A DNA stretch of 56,786 bases from Patescibacteria group bacterium. Lineage in GTDB: Bacteria > Patescibacteriota > Minisyncoccia > Phycocordibacterales > DATDWN01. Shown one piece after another: positions 44,130 to 52,304 of the stretch. Numbering within the stretch: the first letter of the stretch is position 1; every line of letters begins with the position of its first letter. The notes beneath the pieces are model-generated. The model was not told where the DNA came from. It saw only the letters and a program-made list of their open reading frames with translations, and ran no database searches. The stretch is taken from contig JACDEV010000004.1 in assembly GCA_013816135.1 (NCBI GenBank), positions 1-56,786 on the forward strand. Direction: 5' to 3'. The position numbers and the translations under genes were made by a program.

Positions 44130-44876
44130 TTATTTTGCTATCAGACTAAAATCCAAAAGTAGTGGAGAATGATCGGAAACCTCGTCTATCATTACTTCAA
44201 ATTTATTCACAATAATATCTGGAGAAGTGAAAACGTAATCAGCAAATTTCTCATCCTTTTTATATAAGCTTGTTCTAGTCGAAGTAACTTCATTTATCTT
44301 CACTTGATCATTTAGTCCCTCACTAACAATATTTAAACTTTCAGTGTCGGGACGCAAGTTGAAATCCCCACAAAGAATTTTAGGAGTGGTGATACTGTCC
44401 ATGAATTCCTTTATCCTTTTTGATTGATTAATCCGGTCAGGAGTATCAGTCTTCCCATTTCCATTCCATAAGCCATGGACGTTAACTACAGTGCAAACAT
44501 TATCTTCAATTTCAAACTTCAACCATTGCAAAATTCTGGAATGTTTACCATCAATAATTCCTTCTTCGCTTCTATTTGGATGGATTGTTATTTCTCCTTC
44601 TTCCAAAACATCATATTTTTTATGAATAAACATTCCTATACCGTACACACCCTCTACGCATGGACGGAAAAAAGCATTGTGTTCCGGTAACAAACTCTCT
44701 TTTATTTCTGTAAAAATGTCGTGGTGGCTATCAGGATATTGCTTACCCAATTTATCGACTGCCTTTTCATATAATTCTTGCATACAGAAAATATCTATAT
44801 TTTGGTTTCTTTTTATAAACTCTCTAAATGGGTCTTTAATCCTAGCTCCCCATGTGTTTAGTGTGATTAGCTTCAT
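44130..44876 (-). CDS. Endonuclease/exonuclease/phosphatase family protein
   Basis: MKLITLNTWGARI...IFCMQELYE...ILCGDFNLRPDTESL...SDHSPLLLDF. Confidence 0.88.
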   Translation of the reverse strand: MKLITLNTWGARIKDPFREFIKRNQNIDIFCMQELYEKAVDKLGKQYPDSHHDIFTEIKESLLPEHNAFFRPCVEGVYGIGMFIHKKYDVLEEGEITIHPNRSEEGIIDGKHSRILQWLKFEIEDNVCTVVNVHGLWNGNGKTDTPDRINQSKRIKEFMDSITTPKILCGDFNLRPDTESLNIVSEGLNDQVKINEVTSTRTSLYKKDEKFADYVFTSPDIIVNKFEVMIDEVSDHSPLLLDFSLIAK

Positions 44877-45406
44877 TTATTTAAAAATTCTCTTAATTTC
44901 TCTACTGCAATCTTCCTCATGCTTATTTTATTCTTTTCTTCAGCGCTCATCTCTCCAAAGGTCTCAGAATAACCTTCAGGTTGAAATATCGGATCCCAGC
45001 CAAATCCTTCTCCTCGGGGAGATACAATAGTTCCTCTTATACTTCCTTCAAAAAAACTAATATTTTTATTTGAATCTGAGAATCCGATTATAACCTTTGC
45101 TTCAGCTTTGAAATTTCCGAAGCTTTCTGCAAGTCTGTGCAAACCCAGGTTACCTATAGTTTTCATAAACCATTTAATAAGTGGGCCAGGTAAACCATTG
45201 AGGGCTTCTAAATACAGAGAATTATCTTCTACAATAAATTCACCTGCATGATGCTTTTGAGCCTCAATCAGTTTTGCTTTAATTATTTTATTAGCATCAA
45301 TATCCTGAATTTCTGGAATATCAATATCCAACCCTTCTACATTTCCAAGGATGCTTTGAACTTCAACCAACTTACCTTTGTTACCTGTTATAAAATATAG
45401 TGCCAT
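44873..45406 (-). CDS. rdgB: RdgB/HAM1 non-canonical purine NTP pyrophosphatase
   Basis: YFITGNKGKLVEVQSIL...IVEDNSLYLEALNGLPGPLIKWF...GFGWDPIFQPEGYSETFGEMSAEEKNKIS. Confidence 0.92.
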   Translation of the reverse strand: MALYFITGNKGKLVEVQSILGNVEGLDIDIPEIQDIDANKIIKAKLIEAQKHHAGEFIVEDNSLYLEALNGLPGPLIKWFMKTIGNLGLHRLAESFGNFKAEAKVIIGFSDSNKNISFFEGSIRGTIVSPRGEGFGWDPIFQPEGYSETFGEMSAEEKNKISMRKIAVEKLREFLNK

Positions 45407-45449
45407 ATTGCCCCAACTCTATCATAAATTTTTGCTAGAAAAAAGAGGA

Positions 45450-46040
45450 TTATTTTCGTTCAATACTACCCTTTCCTAAAAAGGAATTAATGATCATCTC
45501 TATCTTTAATTTCAAATCTAATATAGAACTGTTGTTTTCAACGACAAGATCAAATAAATTTTTATCCAGTTGATTTTCAAAGTGAGAATCATCATATTTA
45601 GATTTCAACCACCCTCTTTTAATTTTCTCTTCATCCGAAGACTTTATACAAATAGAAAAACAATCAAATCTACTTTTGAGCTCAATTAAATCATATTTTG
45701 ATCTTACATCGCTAATAATTACAAAATCTAGTTCTAATTTATTTTCTAATTCGTTCAAAAAAATTTGAAAATTTTCTTCCTCTGAATGTTCCAAAACATA
45801 TTTACTAAAATCTTCTCTGTATGATTCTTTGTATAATCTATCATTTAAAAACTTACCTAAGTCTAAATTACGTTCCATGCAATATTCAGTTTTTAGATGC
45901 TGAGCAGTACTCACTAAATCAACTCTACAACCTTTTTCAATTAGTAAGTCCTTCAATAATATGGCAAAAGTGTCCTTTCCAGAGTATCTTTTACCTGCTA
46001 TTAGAATTAGTTTTGTATTCGAAAAATTTGGTTTTTTCAT
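45450..46040 (-). CDS. P-loop nucleoside/small-molecule kinase-like protein
   Basis: MKKPNFSNTKLILIAGKRYSGKDTFAILL (Walker A) and VIISDVRSKYDLIEL. Start 46040 chosen because the longer ORF overlaps a divergent gene. Confidence 0.7.
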   Translation of the reverse strand: MKKPNFSNTKLILIAGKRYSGKDTFAILLKDLLIEKGCRVDLVSTAQHLKTEYCMERNLDLGKFLNDRLYKESYREDFSKYVLEHSEEENFQIFLNELENKLELDFVIISDVRSKYDLIELKSRFDCFSICIKSSDEEKIKRGWLKSKYDDSHFENQLDKNLFDLVVENNSSILDLKLKIEMIINSFLGKGSIERK

Positions 46041-46071
46041 CAATTTAAATGTATCATATAAAAGCTCTACC

Positions 46072-47772
46072 ATGTCTGCCAAAAAGAAAATTATTATTTT
46101 CAGCGTTCCATTTAGCGGACACTTGAACGTACTCAAAGATTTCATTAAAGAACATGGTAATTCCTTTGATTTTAAGCTAGTTATTACAGGGTGGAGCAAT
46201 ATTTCAGCTAATCTAGACTCCCTAGAGACAGAAACTACGATAATTCAGAATAGTGAGCTTCATGAGACTGATCCCGCATTATGGACATTTCCAAGATTAG
46301 TAAATCAACTTGAGGAGTGTCTTAAGATCGCTCGATCATTTAAACCTGATATAGTTTTGTATGATTTCTTTTCGATAGAGGGGTACTTCGTCGGAAAAAT
46401 CTTAGGCATACCTTATTGGTCTTCTATACCTGCTTTAATGGGGCCTTTCGAAAATAGAGAATATCTAAGCAATAAATTTTTTATTCCCATAAATCAGGAA
46501 TCGATAAAAACAATATCTAAAAAATTCAACGTAGAAATTAATGAAGATGAAATAGAAATGATTTCTGACGGCTTTCACTTTCCTGGTCAAGTTAACATCG
46601 TTTGGTCATACAAAAGCATTACACCTGAAAATTTTAAGAAAAATAGGAAAGATGTACCTTATATTTTTGTCGGAAATTTAAAAGAAAACTATAAATCTCT
46701 CAGAACAATTAAAGTTAAAAATAATCCAAAAATATATTTCTCGCTTGGAACAGTAATAATGAATAATCTCTGGAGCCAACAGGAAGATACGAAGAAAAAA
46801 CTGATTGATTTCATAACTTACCTGGCAGATCTATGGAAAGATCGTCCCTGGAATATAGTATTTATTACTCAAGGTAAAAATATTATTGAAACAACACCTA
46901 AAAACTGGACAATGTTCACCACAGCAGATCAGATTGTAGAATTGAAAGAATCAGATATCTTTGTAACGCATGGTGGCAACAATAGCTTTCACGAAGCTGT
47001 ACTATCCAAAGTTCCGATGGTTGTCATACCCTTCTTTGGTGATCAGCCGCTAATAGGGAAAAAAGTCGAAGAGTTAGGTATTGGTATAAATTTGCTAAAC
47101 CATACTGATATTAGTACACAGAATTCAAAAGAGTTCTTAAACAATGAACTTGCAGAAAAAGTAGATAAGGCTATACAAAATATTTTAGACACTGATAAAT
47201 ATAGAAAAGCCTTTGATAATTTGAATTTAGAGCATACTGAGATAAAAAGTTTTTTTGAAGGAAAAATTAGTTTTTCTGAGGGTGACTTATTGTTCGGCAC
47301 TAACATTGCTAGGAAAAAATATGTTGAAAAAACAGATTGTCAGGAGGAATTTAAAATTCTTGAATTTAAAGCTTTTTCCGAATTAATTTCAAAAGAAAAT
47401 GCTTTACCAAGAATAGTAGATATTTATCATGATGTAGTTCTTAATAATGAGTATTTTGAAAAAGACGTGAACTCTAGTCTAAACCCTTATACAGAAATAC
47501 TTAAAAGATACAAAGAATACTTAGGAGAATCAACAGATTTTTGCACTATGTGTATAAAAGGCTTAGATTTCTTTTCTGAATTATTTAAGATACATTTTAT
47601 TCTTACGGAATATGATTCAGAAACTAATTACATAACCACAAAAGAAATTATGCATATAATTAATAACAGAGAGAAGTTTGAAAAATCTGTAATCTTTTAT
47701 GACAAAGTCTCTACAGCCTGGGTTCCAATTGGTTTTGAGGAAGTTAAAGAAAAATTTCTAATTATTCTTTAA
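46072..47772 (+). CDS. GT1/MGT-type glycosyltransferase with C-terminal extension
   Basis: IIIFSVPFSGHLNVLKDF...VTHGGNNSFHEAVLSKVPMVVIPFFGDQPLIGKKVEELGIGI; about 140 extra residues after the GT domain. Confidence 0.88.
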   Translation: MSAKKKIIIFSVPFSGHLNVLKDFIKEHGNSFDFKLVITGWSNISANLDSLETETTIIQNSELHETDPALWTFPRLVNQLEECLKIARSFKPDIVLYDFFSIEGYFVGKILGIPYWSSIPALMGPFENREYLSNKFFIPINQESIKTISKKFNVEINEDEIEMISDGFHFPGQVNIVWSYKSITPENFKKNRKDVPYIFVGNLKENYKSLRTIKVKNNPKIYFSLGTVIMNNLWSQQEDTKKKLIDFITYLADLWKDRPWNIVFITQGKNIIETTPKNWTMFTTADQIVELKESDIFVTHGGNNSFHEAVLSKVPMVVIPFFGDQPLIGKKVEELGIGINLLNHTDISTQNSKEFLNNELAEKVDKAIQNILDTDKYRKAFDNLNLEHTEIKSFFEGKISFSEGDLLFGTNIARKKYVEKTDCQEEFKILEFKAFSELISKENALPRIVDIYHDVVLNNEYFEKDVNSSLNPYTEILKRYKEYLGESTDFCTMCIKGLDFFSELFKIHFILTEYDSETNYITTKEIMHIINNREKFEKSVIFYDKVSTAWVPIGFEEVKEKFLIIL

Positions 47773-48008: not shown

Positions 48009-48824
48009 TTAGCTCTGATGGAGAAGACTCGGGTGGACATCCTCCTGAATCCTCTCTTCCGGGTGCGCCTCCGTGATATGACTTCGGAGGTTTTTGTCAC
48101 GACCGAAGAGCCTTTTCTCATGGCAACAAGGACAACGATAGAGAGCGATATACACTCCACTTCCCGGAGATGTTTCTGTTACTCCGGCAAAAGTAAAGTC
48201 GTACGTTTTGCCATTTTCTCTTATTGTCCAGCCTCGGATATACGAAACCTTATTCTTTTCCAACCTCATTTGGACGAAGTAGAAGACAGCACCCGCTGCC
48301 ACTGCTCCAAGAATCATTGAGGAAAGGAGTAGCATCCAACTGGATTCCTCCACAACAATTTTCTCTACTGGAACTTCTTTTGTACGATCAAGCTTTCCTT
48401 GGAGTACTACAGTGGCTTGTTCGAACTCGTCTCTTTTTTTTGCAGCACTCAAGTATTTCTTCGAAAGATCGTCGTTTGACTCTCGAAGTTTATTGACTTC
48501 CTTACGTAAGGATTGCCACCCAGTGTCCATACGCAGGATTGCTGCTGAGCGCATGACAACCGCATGTGGCGGTGTGGCCTTGCATGATCCTGCAAGAAGG
48601 ACTTTCTGTCCTACTTGGAGATGCTTCGCTTGAGCGGGTTTGAGCCCGCTATCCGCGAACACCTTACTCACCCAATTCAAATCGCAGTTTGCATTTTGCA
48701 TGACTCTTGTCACGCTATTGTACTGAGGTGAGAGTTTTCCGATGAGATGTAGCTTAGGGGCAGCACTTGCTGACCCTAACTGAAGACAGAAGACCCCTAG
48801 GGTCCAGACTATTTTCAATTTCAC
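48009..48824 (-). CDS. Signal-peptide protein with LysM-like extracytoplasmic region, coiled coil, TM and cytoplasmic Cys/His zinc-finger-like tail
   Basis: MKLKIVWTLGVFCLQLGSASA; LHLIGKLSPQYNSVTRVMQNANCDLNWVSKVFADSGLKPAQAKHLQVGQKVLLAGSC; TM LLLSSMILGAVAAGAVFYFV; tail CPCCHEKRLFGRDKNLRSHITEAHPEE. Confidence 0.7.
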   Translation of the reverse strand: MKLKIVWTLGVFCLQLGSASAAPKLHLIGKLSPQYNSVTRVMQNANCDLNWVSKVFADSGLKPAQAKHLQVGQKVLLAGSCKATPPHAVVMRSAAILRMDTGWQSLRKEVNKLRESNDDLSKKYLSAAKKRDEFEQATVVLQGKLDRTKEVPVEKIVVEESSWMLLLSSMILGAVAAGAVFYFVQMRLEKNKVSYIRGWTIRENGKTYDFTFAGVTETSPGSGVYIALYRCPCCHEKRLFGRDKNLRSHITEAHPEERIQEDVHPSLLHQS

Positions 48825-48836
48825 TTTCTTCTCCTT

Positions 48837-50282
48837 TTAGCCTATTGAGGCTTTATCTGATGGCCATCTGAACCAGCTTGACCTTGCTTGTTCTGTTACC
48901 GGAGCAGGTTGCTTGGTAAATCTGGATGGCAAATCCGGTCTTTTGCCAGTCCACGTTTCAACTTCCTCACAAATCTTCGTGGCGCTTTCCTCTGTTGCGC
49001 CCTTATCACTCAACATTGATTTGTAACGTATTTCCAGTTCAGCAGGAACGCCACTTTCGTGATTTTTTTCACCTGACCTAAACTTGAGAAGACGAATCGT
49101 GTTCTCTGAACTGACTCCCTGTCGTGCTACCATCGAAAGTCCAGAACTCTTCTTTGGCTCTGCCTCTCTCTGAGGTTTTATTTCCAATGTTGAATCACCC
49201 GCGGATTCTGCGACAATGATCAGAGCCATCCACATCTTTCCATCTGTTACTTCGTGGACGATCCCTATATGGGTTTCCATATCATCAATCATTGAAGGGT
49301 TTTTTGCACAGACCCTCTGTTTGATGAGGCGAACTATCTGAGATGTCTTCTCTTTTTTCCACGGACCATGTGCCCATAGTCCAATAACCTTTCCTTGCTC
49401 GATAAGTCCAGTGTCCTGAAACCGACCAGCAAAGAGTTCTTCTACAATTTCTTCAGCTGTTGTTACTTCCGATTTATTTTTTTCGCCATCAGCAAGACCA
49501 AAGAAAACATGCTTACCACAGGAGAGCATTGCTTCCCAATCTGCCTGATCGAAGTTAATGATGTCTCCCGTCACCTGGAGAATTTCTCTGATGATAAGAA
49601 GCATCGGCACAATGGAATTCTGATTGACGAGATTCCACGCATCTTTGAAAGTGAGATTTGCCCTGTCCTCTGCGGACATAGTAGACATAAACTCTTTCAA
49701 ATATGCGTTTCGTATCGCAATTGTTGGCACCAACTCTTGAATTTCTTTCAGAGCGGTGTTGGCTTTTTTGTTCCTTCCTTCGTCGGGTTCTGGAAGGATT
49801 ACGATGGCCAAAGTTGACTTGCCCATTTCTTTTGCAAGCCTTGCTGCAACAGGAAGTGCTCCTGTTCCAGTGCCTCCACCAACTGCGCCCACCAACAAGA
49901 GTTCGTCAACGTTCTCAAAAAACTTCCTCATCGCTGCTTGACTCTCTTCGGTTTCCGCAGCTTCGCGACCTTTTTCTGGTCTTCCCCCAGCACCGCGACC
50001 TTTGGTGATGGTATTGCCGCCAAGCTGATGAATAGTTAAGGCATTCCCCCAGCGATCTTTGTTGGGATCCTCTTGCTTACCAAAATGGAGTTGAGCCACT
50101 TTGGCATCAGTGTTGGCACCAAACATATAAAAGTCTGGATAAAGCTTTGGATCGCATCCGTCAACGGTCAATCGTAAGTTGTTTTCGCCGCCACCTCCAA
50201 AAAAGGCAACGCCGACTTTGGCTCGATAATCCTGAATGATTGAATCCATTGTTGAATTCTCTGTCGAATCGTCTGTCGTCAT
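48837..50282 (-). CDS. Divergent FtsZ/tubulin-like GTPase
   Basis: VGVAFFGGGGENN, GANTDAKVAQL, RGAGGRPEKGREAAE, tubulin signature VGAVGGGTGTGALPVAARLAKEMG, T7-like INFDQADWEAML (NxDxxD). Confidence 0.88.
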   Translation of the reverse strand: MTTDDSTENSTMDSIIQDYRAKVGVAFFGGGGENNLRLTVDGCDPKLYPDFYMFGANTDAKVAQLHFGKQEDPNKDRWGNALTIHQLGGNTITKGRGAGGRPEKGREAAETEESQAAMRKFFENVDELLLVGAVGGGTGTGALPVAARLAKEMGKSTLAIVILPEPDEGRNKKANTALKEIQELVPTIAIRNAYLKEFMSTMSAEDRANLTFKDAWNLVNQNSIVPMLLIIREILQVTGDIINFDQADWEAMLSCGKHVFFGLADGEKNKSEVTTAEEIVEELFAGRFQDTGLIEQGKVIGLWAHGPWKKEKTSQIVRLIKQRVCAKNPSMIDDMETHIGIVHEVTDGKMWMALIIVAESAGDSTLEIKPQREAEPKKSSGLSMVARQGVSSENTIRLLKFRSGEKNHESGVPAELEIRYKSMLSDKGATEESATKICEEVETWTGKRPDLPSRFTKQPAPVTEQARSSWFRWPSDKASIG

Positions 50283-50719
50283 TTACCCTTTACCTCATGT
50301 TTTGGAATGGTTGGAAAGAAAATCCTAACTGAGCAATTCCGCATACCTGGTCGTGCCAAGTATTCACGTACAAATTGCTTAGCCATTGATTGTACAGTTT
50401 CAAGATCACTAGCCAGGCCAAGTTGGATAGTCAGAAGTACTCTATAGTCTCCTAACATTAACCACCTAGTCCGTGAGCTCTGCGATATATCTTTTTCTAC
50501 CTCCGAGGATAGCTTGGTCCCTTGCCTCCTATATATATGAGGAACAAGGCTTATTAGCTGCTCAATAAATAGTGCTTCAATCTCCTTGCTTACAACTTGG
50601 AGTGCGTCTCGGTAAGTGCGCCTTCTTTTATATGAAGACCACCAACACATTCCTGCACTAAAGAGCACCAGGGAAACAAGAAACGAAAAAATCACCCGAA
50701 ACGTAAAACTTTGTACCAT
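50279..50719 (-). CDS. Single-TM protein, first gene of the tubulin-like operon
   Basis: FTFRVIFSFLVSLVLFSAGMCWW TM then a cytoplasmic region; stop overlaps the tubulin-like start. Confidence 0.7.
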   Translation of the reverse strand: MVQSFTFRVIFSFLVSLVLFSAGMCWWSSYKRRRTYRDALQVVSKEIEALFIEQLISLVPHIYRRQGTKLSSEVEKDISQSSRTRWLMLGDYRVLLTIQLGLASDLETVQSMAKQFVREYLARPGMRNCSVRIFFPTIPKHEVKGK

Positions 50720-50784: not shown

Positions 50785-51081
50785 TTAAGTAGCAAGTTTA
50801 ATAGCTAGCTTATACAAACCGTCGTTGCCTATAGTTTTCATAAACCATTTAATAAGTGGGCCAGGTAAACCATTGAGGGCTTCTAAATACAGAGAATTAT
50901 CTTCTACAATAAATTCACCTGCATGATGCTTTTGAGCCTCTTCTAGTTTTGCTTTTATTATTTTGTTAGCATCAATATCCTGGATTTCAGGTATATCAAT
51001 ATCCAATCCTTCTACGTTTCCAAGAATACTTTGAACTTCGGCTAACTTACCCTTGTTTCCTGTTATAAAATATAGTGCCAT
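50785..51081 (-). pseudogene. rdgB: Truncated duplicate of rdgB
   Basis: First ~85 aa nearly identical to the 44873-45406 product, then unrelated short tail (KLAIKLAT*). Lacks the GFGWDPIF and SAEEKN regions. Confidence 0.88.
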
Positions 51082-51139
51082 GTTGTTCCAACTCTATCAT
51101 ATTTTTTTTATTAGAAAAAGAATATTTAAATAAAGAAAA

Positions 51140-51193: not shown

Positions 51194-51715
51194 TTAGCGG
51201 GGAGCAACCATGAATATCTCCTCGAGATACCACCAACGATTGCCATCCGTACTTGCAAAGGAACCAACTACTCCAGATGATACAACTTTCCATTTGTATA
51301 TTCCTACACCTAGAGTATTGCCGAACTTGTGCTGGTTTTCTTGTCGCACCAACTTTTGTGCATATGCTTTTGTTCTGGCTTCTCGCAGAGTTCCTCGACG
51401 ATCAAAATAGTAGTCAGCATCACTTGATGATGCTGATACAATTCGACAGAACCAAATGATATGAAAGACTTCGTAACTTCCTTGTTTACGCACCTCGAAC
51501 TCAAATTTAGGCTCGAGTATTTTGCTTGGATAGTGGGCTTTCAGCTCATTACCCACAATTACAGCAAAAGTGTTTGCACTGTCATGCGCAGTCTTTCCGT
51601 CGATCGAAGTCACTTCCATTCGACACTGACCGCGTTCACATTTAACTCCCTGGTTCTGAGCTTTCACGACGGTACTGATTAGTAAAATCAGTAGTACCAA
51701 GGTAACCTGCTTCAT
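51194..51715 (-). CDS. Secreted hypothetical protein
   Basis: Start moved to 51715 (MKQVTLVLLILLISTVVKAQNQG signal peptide, ACAAGGAGATAG ribosome-binding site). Confidence 0.7.
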   Translation of the reverse strand: MKQVTLVLLILLISTVVKAQNQGVKCERGQCRMEVTSIDGKTAHDSANTFAVIVGNELKAHYPSKILEPKFEFEVRKQGSYEVFHIIWFCRIVSASSSDADYYFDRRGTLREARTKAYAQKLVRQENQHKFGNTLGVGIYKWKVVSSGVVGSFASTDGNRWWYLEEIFMVAPR

Positions 51716-51789
51716 ACCTATCTCCTTGTAAAGAACTGGACTAAATTGTCCCACCAAAAAAATCAAAAGGATTTAATTGCTTTGGTTGG

Positions 51790-51832: not shown

Positions 51833-52228
51833 CTACTTGTCGAGAATGATGTAGTACGGCATTCCACCAGGTAGTGCCTTCCACATGGAGCGAGGCATCA
51901 GGAGTTTCGCTTTGCCCGATGCGATACCGAGTTGGAAGAGTTGTTCCATCGCCCGATGGAAGCTCGTCCACTGGTTACCATGCTTGTCGTTGCAAGCGTT
52001 GAGGAATGACATTCCTCCACCGCTCGACTCCTTGAAATCATCAGAAAGCTCAGAGAGCATCTCAATGATCTCTTTTTGATGCTTCTTCAGACGGCCGGGA
52101 TGAAACCCGACAGTGTTCGTGATTCCTTCCGCCTTGATGTGTTTTGTGGTGTCTTCCTCTTTACGGAAAAGGCAGTCCATGAAAATGGACTCCACACGCT
52201 CGGTGCTCAGTCGCTGGGCTACACTCAT
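51833..52228 (-). CDS. Hypothetical protein
   Basis: Start moved to 52228 (GAAGGAGATGAAAGA-ATG, MSVAQRLSTERVESIF..). Confidence 0.65.
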   Translation of the reverse strand: MSVAQRLSTERVESIFMDCLFRKEEDTTKHIKAEGITNTVGFHPGRLKKHQKEIIEMLSELSDDFKESSGGGMSFLNACNDKHGNQWTSFHRAMEQLFQLGIASGKAKLLMPRSMWKALPGGMPYYIILDK

Positions 52229-52304
52229 TCTTTCATCTCCTTCACATGGCTTCGATTTCTTTAGACAAATTAACATTAATAATGTATTTTGTCAATGTTT
52301 TAAA

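Follow-up and report, generated by a model that had tools for sequence, protein, structure and literature searches.

Genes at the locus and the FZL GTPase

The window, i.e. the whole stretch of 56,786 nucleotides that was analyzed, holds a set of three genes on the minus strand. The set spans 2.7 kb, and a divergent GTPase of the FtsZ family occupies its middle position:

Gene 1, 50279..50719, minus strand: 146 aa, ATG start; putative membrane tether
Gene 2 (FZL), 48837..50282, minus strand: 481 aa, ATG start; divergent FtsZ-family GTPase
Gene 3, 48009..48824, minus strand: 271 aa, GTG start; protein with a signal-like segment, a LysM-like region, a coiled coil and a TM segment

The name FZL is used here for the 481-aa GTPase of the window and for its four homologues in other copies of the module. 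The start of gene 2 overlaps the stop of gene 1 by 4 bp, a gap of 12 bp separates gene 2 from gene 3, and the GTG start of gene 3 is preceded by the ribosome-binding-like sequence AGGAGA. A three-gene operon with this spacing had been proposed from the DNA sequence, and the reading frames, the overlap and the gap were all found again. The same holds for its composition, which was predicted to be GC-richer than that of the neighbors and measured 45.7% versus 35.3% for the remaining window, and for its setting: among the ORFs of the window, no ftsA, ftsQ or mur gene adjoins the operon.

The original prediction placed gene 2 in the tubulin/FtsZ family on account of the landmarks GGGGENN, GRGAGG, GGGTGTG and NFDQAD, all of which are present as described. 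In HMM searches, the window protein matched PF00091 with 64.8 bits (Pfam cut-off 33) and stayed far under the 295-bit cut-off of TIGR00065, the NCBIfam ftsZ equivalog, with a score of 97.4 bits; the TIGR00065 scores of the homologues were between 59 and 134. A value of 97 versus 295 bits puts FZL in the FtsZ family, yet far from the canonical proteins, and the divergence that had been claimed for the GTPase was thus found in these searches as well. The FtsZ_C domain (PF12327) was not matched at E ≤ 1 in four FZL (Pfam); nevertheless, the alignment of an FZL profile with PDB sequences spans the FtsZ_C region. This profile, made from four homologues, hit A. aeolicus FtsZ with an E-value of 2.7e-37 over the whole two-domain core, and CetZ, RepX and TubZ with E-values of 3e-12, 4e-10 and 6e-7 to 7e-5, respectively. 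As far as profile comparisons can tell, FZL is closer to FtsZ than to CetZ, TubZ or RepX. The AlphaFold model of FZL is of low confidence (pLDDT 43, alignment of 3); when this model was used in Foldseek, the best PDB matches were all FtsZ (E ~1e-16, ~350 columns).

A residue alignment was made of the five FZL and the FtsZ proteins of E. coli, A. aeolicus, B. subtilis and Patescibacteria. Without exception, the five FZL share (E. coli numbering) N43-T44-D45, G71, G105, G107, G109, E138, N165, D209 and D212, so the glycine frame of the T4 loop (G105/G107/G109) is fully kept. The equivalent of R142 is found in four FZL and is a lysine in the fifth, and the Asn of T7 is replaced by His in one. FZL also have features of their own, namely an insert between T2 and T3, shared F/W positions in the same interval, and a QD motif. 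At the C-terminus, all eight canonical Patescibacteria FtsZ in the alignment carry an IPxF(L/I)R motif (e.g. IPAFLRR or IPTFIRK), and none of the five FZL carries the IPxFLR peptide, in line with the prediction, which saw no obvious FtsZ tail.

The source genome (789 kb, 98% complete) encodes just two PF00091 proteins. The other one is an ordinary FtsZ whose gene directly follows ftsA and which scores 168 bits with PF00091 and 107 bits with FtsZ_C; the genome thus has a separate, canonical ftsZ. In three maximum-likelihood trees, which are without CetZ or TubZ rows, the FZL stand apart from canonical FtsZ with support values of 100 (SH-aLRT), 100/99 and 100/100; the 100/99 tree places a still more divergent protein, that of genome G913 (see below), among the FZL. 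Because the FZL branches are very long, this clade may attach at more than one point within FtsZ: in an AU test, neither a grouping of FZL with Patescibacteria FtsZ (p 0.24) nor one with the FtsZ of the same class (p 0.34) was rejected. FZL may therefore have arisen by local duplication of ftsZ and subsequent fast change. In the trees, FZL form a clade of their own, which may join the family either apart from canonical FtsZ or within its Patescibacteria branch. The evidence that the GTPase is distinct from division FtsZ comes from its sequence, its tail and its context rather than from its function.

Recurrence of the module and its partner genes

Profile searches covered overlapping sets of genomes from the order (~400), the class (384) and the phylum (380), as well as from the family of G311 (31) and the order of G588 (10). 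Canonical FtsZ was kept out by E-value limits of 1e-26 and 1e-32. Since such limits miss very remote FZL, the resulting member count is a lower bound. With these settings, FZL was found in the window and in four other Patescibacteria genomes, i.e. in at least five genomes in total; the four other proteins are 24-46% identical to the window protein:

G015 (Umea_bin-06831): shares its family with the window
G311 (CRAIB_MAG27): a Paceibacterota MAG
G1103: a further member of the genus of G311
G588: another order than the window

The order small protein, FZL, secreted/LysM-like/TM protein is the same in the window, G015, G311 and G588. In G1103, the contig edge lies inside gene 1, of which the 3' end is left, and is followed by FZL and gene 3. 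The three genes are thus neighbors in the other FZL genomes too (in part in G1103), and because the order of the reading frames is repeated from genome to genome, the arrangement is more than chance. The FZL gene of G1103 (L099 121-1491) is interrupted by a single in-frame TAA shortly behind the T7 region, next to an intact gene 3; it may be a pseudogene or the result of an assembly error. A pattern scan with the single window protein, which is too divergent for this purpose, gave no match in genomes or viruses. Alignment-based pattern scans of viral contigs yielded no FZL, only an ordinary ftsZ by a prophage-like stretch (L104), and tblastn searches in phages and plasmids returned only weak matches of the canonical FtsZ type.

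Gene 1 had been described as a single-TM protein. Hydropathy places a TM segment at residues 7-25, near the N-terminus and followed by KRRR, which makes it probable that the C-terminal part of ~115 aa is cytoplasmic. A gene of the same position and size precedes FZL in G588, G311 and G015, and an N-terminal TM segment with K/R after it is present in three of the four proteins (window, G588 and G311; not G015). Sequence conservation is weak: in pairwise BLAST, the best pair was G588-G015 with an E-value of 3e-4, and the window protein gave values of 0.1-3.7. Given the features in common, the gene 1 proteins seem likely to form one family.

Gene 3 encodes an N-terminal signal-like segment, a LysM-like domain at residues ~30-82 with two Cys, a coiled coil, a TM segment at residues 166-184 and a cytoplasmic tail with the pattern C-x2-C-x14-H-x4-H. 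Homologues are present in all four other modules (E-values against the window protein: G588 1e-15, G1103 6e-14, G311 9e-6, G015 7e-5). They have in common an invariant Cys-Trp-Cys domain, a coiled coil or Pro-rich linker, and a TM segment followed by K/R. The C2H2-like tail, which was part of the original prediction, holds for the window protein but not for the family as a whole, as C-x2-C-x12/14-H-x4-H occurs in two of the five homologues (window included) and not in the other three. The predicted LysM-like region had a similarly divided outcome. Pfam PF01476 (LysM) was not matched by the gene 3 protein of the window, and the best homologue (G588) reached 12.0 vs. 20.9 bits (E 0.21), i.e. less than the Pfam cut-off. 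In contrast, an hhalign comparison of gene 3 with E. coli LysM gave a score of 20.6 over 41 columns (P 5e-4), which was reached by 0 of 100 shuffled controls (maximum 16.3). A beta-alpha-alpha-beta arrangement is predicted at 26-77 by AlphaFold with low confidence, and the gene 3 model (pLDDT 51) had no significant fold match (best E 0.12). In the library searches made, neither gene 1 nor gene 3 matched a known partner family.

The 11 genus-mates are without FZL; what matched there was only their canonical FtsZ. In all five copies, the GC content of the module is higher than that of its flanks (45.7/35.3% in the window, and 44.8/39.6, 52.1/48.1, 44.1/42.3 and 55.4/44.7% in the others), with a small gap in G588. 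Among the readable flanks, the genes differ: Ham1 in the window, a ribosome-hibernation factor in G015, an htpX-type peptidase and NUDIX in G311, and NYN and VIT in G588. The nearest relative of the window FZL is that of G1103, which belongs to another family (46% identity, 42-44% in core columns), whereas identity to the FZL of G015 from the same family is only 27-31%. Taken together, the differing flanks, the GC content, the absence from the 11 genus-mates and the nearest copy in another family indicate that the module travels as a unit.

A repeat search also showed that the region around the operon is bracketed by a duplicated Ham1-family gene start, the two copies being 89% identical over 300 nt:

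45129..45428, minus strand: repeat copy with the beginning of the Ham1-family gene 44873-45406, which is intact
50804..51103, minus strand: other repeat copy, a truncated Ham1/ITPase gene start with 89% identity to 45129-45428

Pfam Ham1p_like matches the 98-aa ORF 50785-51081. The bracketed segment extends from 45.4 to 50.8 kb. In the 11 genus-mates, there was no close match to its Ham1 gene, and no match at E 1e-10 to its UDP-glycosyltransferase. We conclude that this variable segment was probably gained by horizontal transfer. Within it, a phosphomevalonate-kinase-like ORF (45450-46199) and the UDP-glycosyltransferase-like ORF (45961-47772) lie on opposite strands, and their 5' ends overlap as listed. 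Upstream of the operon, a putative secreted protein of 190 aa is encoded at 51194-51766, and a 147-aa protein at 51833-52276 matches phrog_26039 (E 2e-34), a phage family of unknown function, with the GC content rising up to 0.49. Given this raised GC, the foreign DNA could reach from ~47.8 to 52.3 kb, with the 190-aa ORF inside it. Near the module of G588, there are type III restriction genes and an NYN-domain gene (L096 9-2919, 5537-6133).

Proposed mechanism and alternatives

We have very little doubt that the second FtsZ and its envelope partners make up a real module that is conserved and mobile. As to how it works, we favor with moderate confidence a specific mechanism in which FZL, gene 1 and gene 3 form a tethered and wall-linked system. 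FZL would bind GTP and polymerize head to tail like FtsZ; both are most likely, given that it retains the loops for nucleotide contact and the catalytic Asp pair of T7 (D245/D248). With the IPxFLR peptide missing, the usual recruitment by FtsA or SepF would not be available to FZL. Gene 1 may serve as a single-pass tether that recruits FZL with its cytoplasmic domain. This role would be ZipA-like, ZipA being a single-pass membrane tether with its cytoplasmic domain on FtsZ. Gene 3 could form a trans-envelope link, with its LysM-like head on the wall and its tail on the filament; such a role would resemble that of MapZ, a wall-linked positioning protein for FtsZ (PMC4931243; the membrane anchors of FtsZ are summarised in PMC12583498). 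The filament would then be anchored at a particular place of the wall and work there alongside ordinary division, possibly by placing wall synthesis, constriction or a surface structure. The sequence data show the genes, their family, the kept motifs, the lack of the tail, the recurring gene order and the patchy distribution; from these we infer the polymerization of FZL, its tethering, the wall binding and the cellular job; likewise, the terms "membrane-tethered" and "wall-linked" are readings of topology and of a weak LysM match. Points against the mechanism are the weak AlphaFold model of FZL, the LysM match under the Pfam cut-off, the weak homology of gene 1 and its missing N-terminal TM segment in G015, the zinc-finger-like tail in only two of five copies, the in-frame stop in G1103 and the lack of an FtsZ_C match; moreover, FZL has only five members, and those named are metagenome bins. 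A wider version, i.e. a dedicated trans-envelope FtsZ machine that is coupled to the wall outside the divisome, spreads as a module among ultra-small bacteria and has a parallel in G913, is put forward as a tentative suggestion.

The main rival to the tether and wall-link model is a conditional modulator of division: FZL would join or poison the Z-ring, and the LysM/TM protein would block septal wall synthesis in a YneA-like fashion. YneA of Bacillus subtilis consists of a TM segment and an extracellular LysM and blocks septal synthesis through FtsW, for which peptidoglycan binding by its LysM is needed (PMC13396833). Gene 3 would share this architecture of a single TM plus an extracellular LysM, but the order is opposite (signal, LysM, TM, cytoplasmic tail). 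Copolymerization with FtsZ is possible since FZL retains the FtsZ interface loops, and the module is accessory and mobile; three dedicated genes, however, exceed the needs of an inhibitor. We regard this explanation as unlikely.

A conflict or defence system, with phages being sensed or stopped by a tubulin-like polymer plus membrane proteins, is in our view rather improbable. Conflict systems with tubulin homologues have been proposed (PMC7159879), FtsZl1/Tubulin_2 offers a comparison, and the patchy, mobile and GC-deviating module would fit, as would its distance of ~3.7 kb from the type III restriction operon in G588 and the phrog_26039 match of the neighbor at 51833-52276 in the window. 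However, PADLOC gave no match for any component, no effector domain, vWA, MoxR or P-loop GTPase can be recognized in the three proteins, and in G015 and G311 the module is surrounded by ordinary genes.

The last two explanations have very little probability left. A TubZ-kind partition system of a plasmid or other element, stranded in the chromosome, would account for an FtsZ-superfamily GTPase on a mobile unit, and the zinc-finger-like tail of gene 3 could touch DNA, but the FZL profile is far nearer to FtsZ than to RepX, TubZ or CetZ, a TubR-like gene was not seen, the partners are envelope proteins, and the contig also bears ribosomal-protein and RNA-polymerase genes. A decaying duplicate of the ordinary ftsZ with chance neighbors, to which the long branches, the in-frame TAA of G1103 and the AU result could point, is largely refuted by the conserved module, whose partners and gene order recur in different families and in two orders. 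Also against it are the residues for nucleotide contact and catalysis, which each of the five FZL retains, and the FZL-specific F/W positions and QD motif.

FtsZ outside division is mainly represented by archaeal CetZ, plasmid TubZ and phage PhuZ. Patescibacteria are tiny and often attached to a host, and their cell biology is almost wholly inferred. We are probably dealing with a rare second-FtsZ module that moves horizontally. If the tether and wall-link model is true, the module would add to these a bacterial, envelope-coupled use of the fold, by a second FtsZ that is mobile and brings along its tether and wall link. The question arises whether Patescibacteria employ such an additional filament in wall growth, in attachment or in the control of division. 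At 2.7 kb, the module is small enough to be expressed in laboratory strains.

Comparison with known systems

Among open-licence papers, we did not find a description of this gene set. Functional analogues of its putative membrane tether and wall-linked protein are ZipA, SepF and MapZ. With canonical FtsZ, FZL shares the GTPase core, the T1-T7 loops, the catalytic Asp and the two-domain length. In contrast to canonical FtsZ, it has no IPxFLR peptide and no FtsZ_C match, forms its own clade, contains the T2-T3 insert, and is an accessory protein encoded away from ftsA and the dcw genes.

FtsZl1/Tubulin_2 (PF13809) is a non-division branch of the FtsZ superfamily that is found in operons with membrane proteins, some of which have OmpA peptidoglycan-binding domains (PMC2875224). 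FZL resembles it in belonging to the superfamily, presumably outside division, and in its operon with membrane proteins. However, FtsZl1 is without T7, while FZL matches PF00091 and the FtsZ core including T7; FZL in turn lacks the coiled-coil C-terminal domain, and the module lacks vWA, kinase and P-loop GTPase genes. PF13809 was not matched at E ≤ 1 by the window FZL, and vWA was absent among the neighbors scanned; the FZL of G311 gave a sub-threshold match to Tubulin_2 (E 0.004). By domain content, FtsZl1 and FtsZl2 (PMC2875224) are families other than FZL, with the test at sequence level covering FtsZl1 (PF13809) only.

A divergent second FtsZ has been reported for some CPR genomes and was placed, by reconstruction, within CPR FtsZ or with Verrucomicrobiota (PMC9871819). 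It shares with FZL that it is a second ftsZ in a Patescibacteria genome and differs in the placement given in its description, as FZL forms a clade of its own. Several members of the class also have pairs of a short, tail-less FtsZ of 310-323 aa and a long, tailed copy of 412-542 aa (L107-L109, L112, L113, L115, L118-L120 and L122-L124); the five long copies that were read end in a motif of the (I/T/R)P(A/T/S)FL type. These pairs were rejected as FZL candidates because they nest in canonical CPR FtsZ in the tree. They fit the report of PMC9871819 better than FZL does, but its data set may include some FZL.

The last comparison is with G913 (L127/L131), which belongs to another class and encodes a second FtsZ-like GTPase of 573 aa with a PF00091 score of 49-52 bits and a degenerate T4. 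The start of this gene overlaps the stop of another one, which encodes a protein with a signal peptide, a LysM-like stretch, a long Pro/Ala-rich linker, a TM segment and a cytoplasmic tail. The LysM-like stretch was seen by eye, and hhalign of the single sequence was not significant; homology of the partner to gene 3 was not detectable, and a second GTPase of this type was not found in 49 genomes of the class. Compared with the module, the gene order is reversed, the small TM gene is missing and the T4 loop is degenerate. What both have in common is a divergent FtsZ-like GTPase next to a gene for a signal peptide/LysM-like/TM protein, and G913 is thus suggestive, though not proof, of a wider association of divergent FtsZ with LysM-like/TM proteins.
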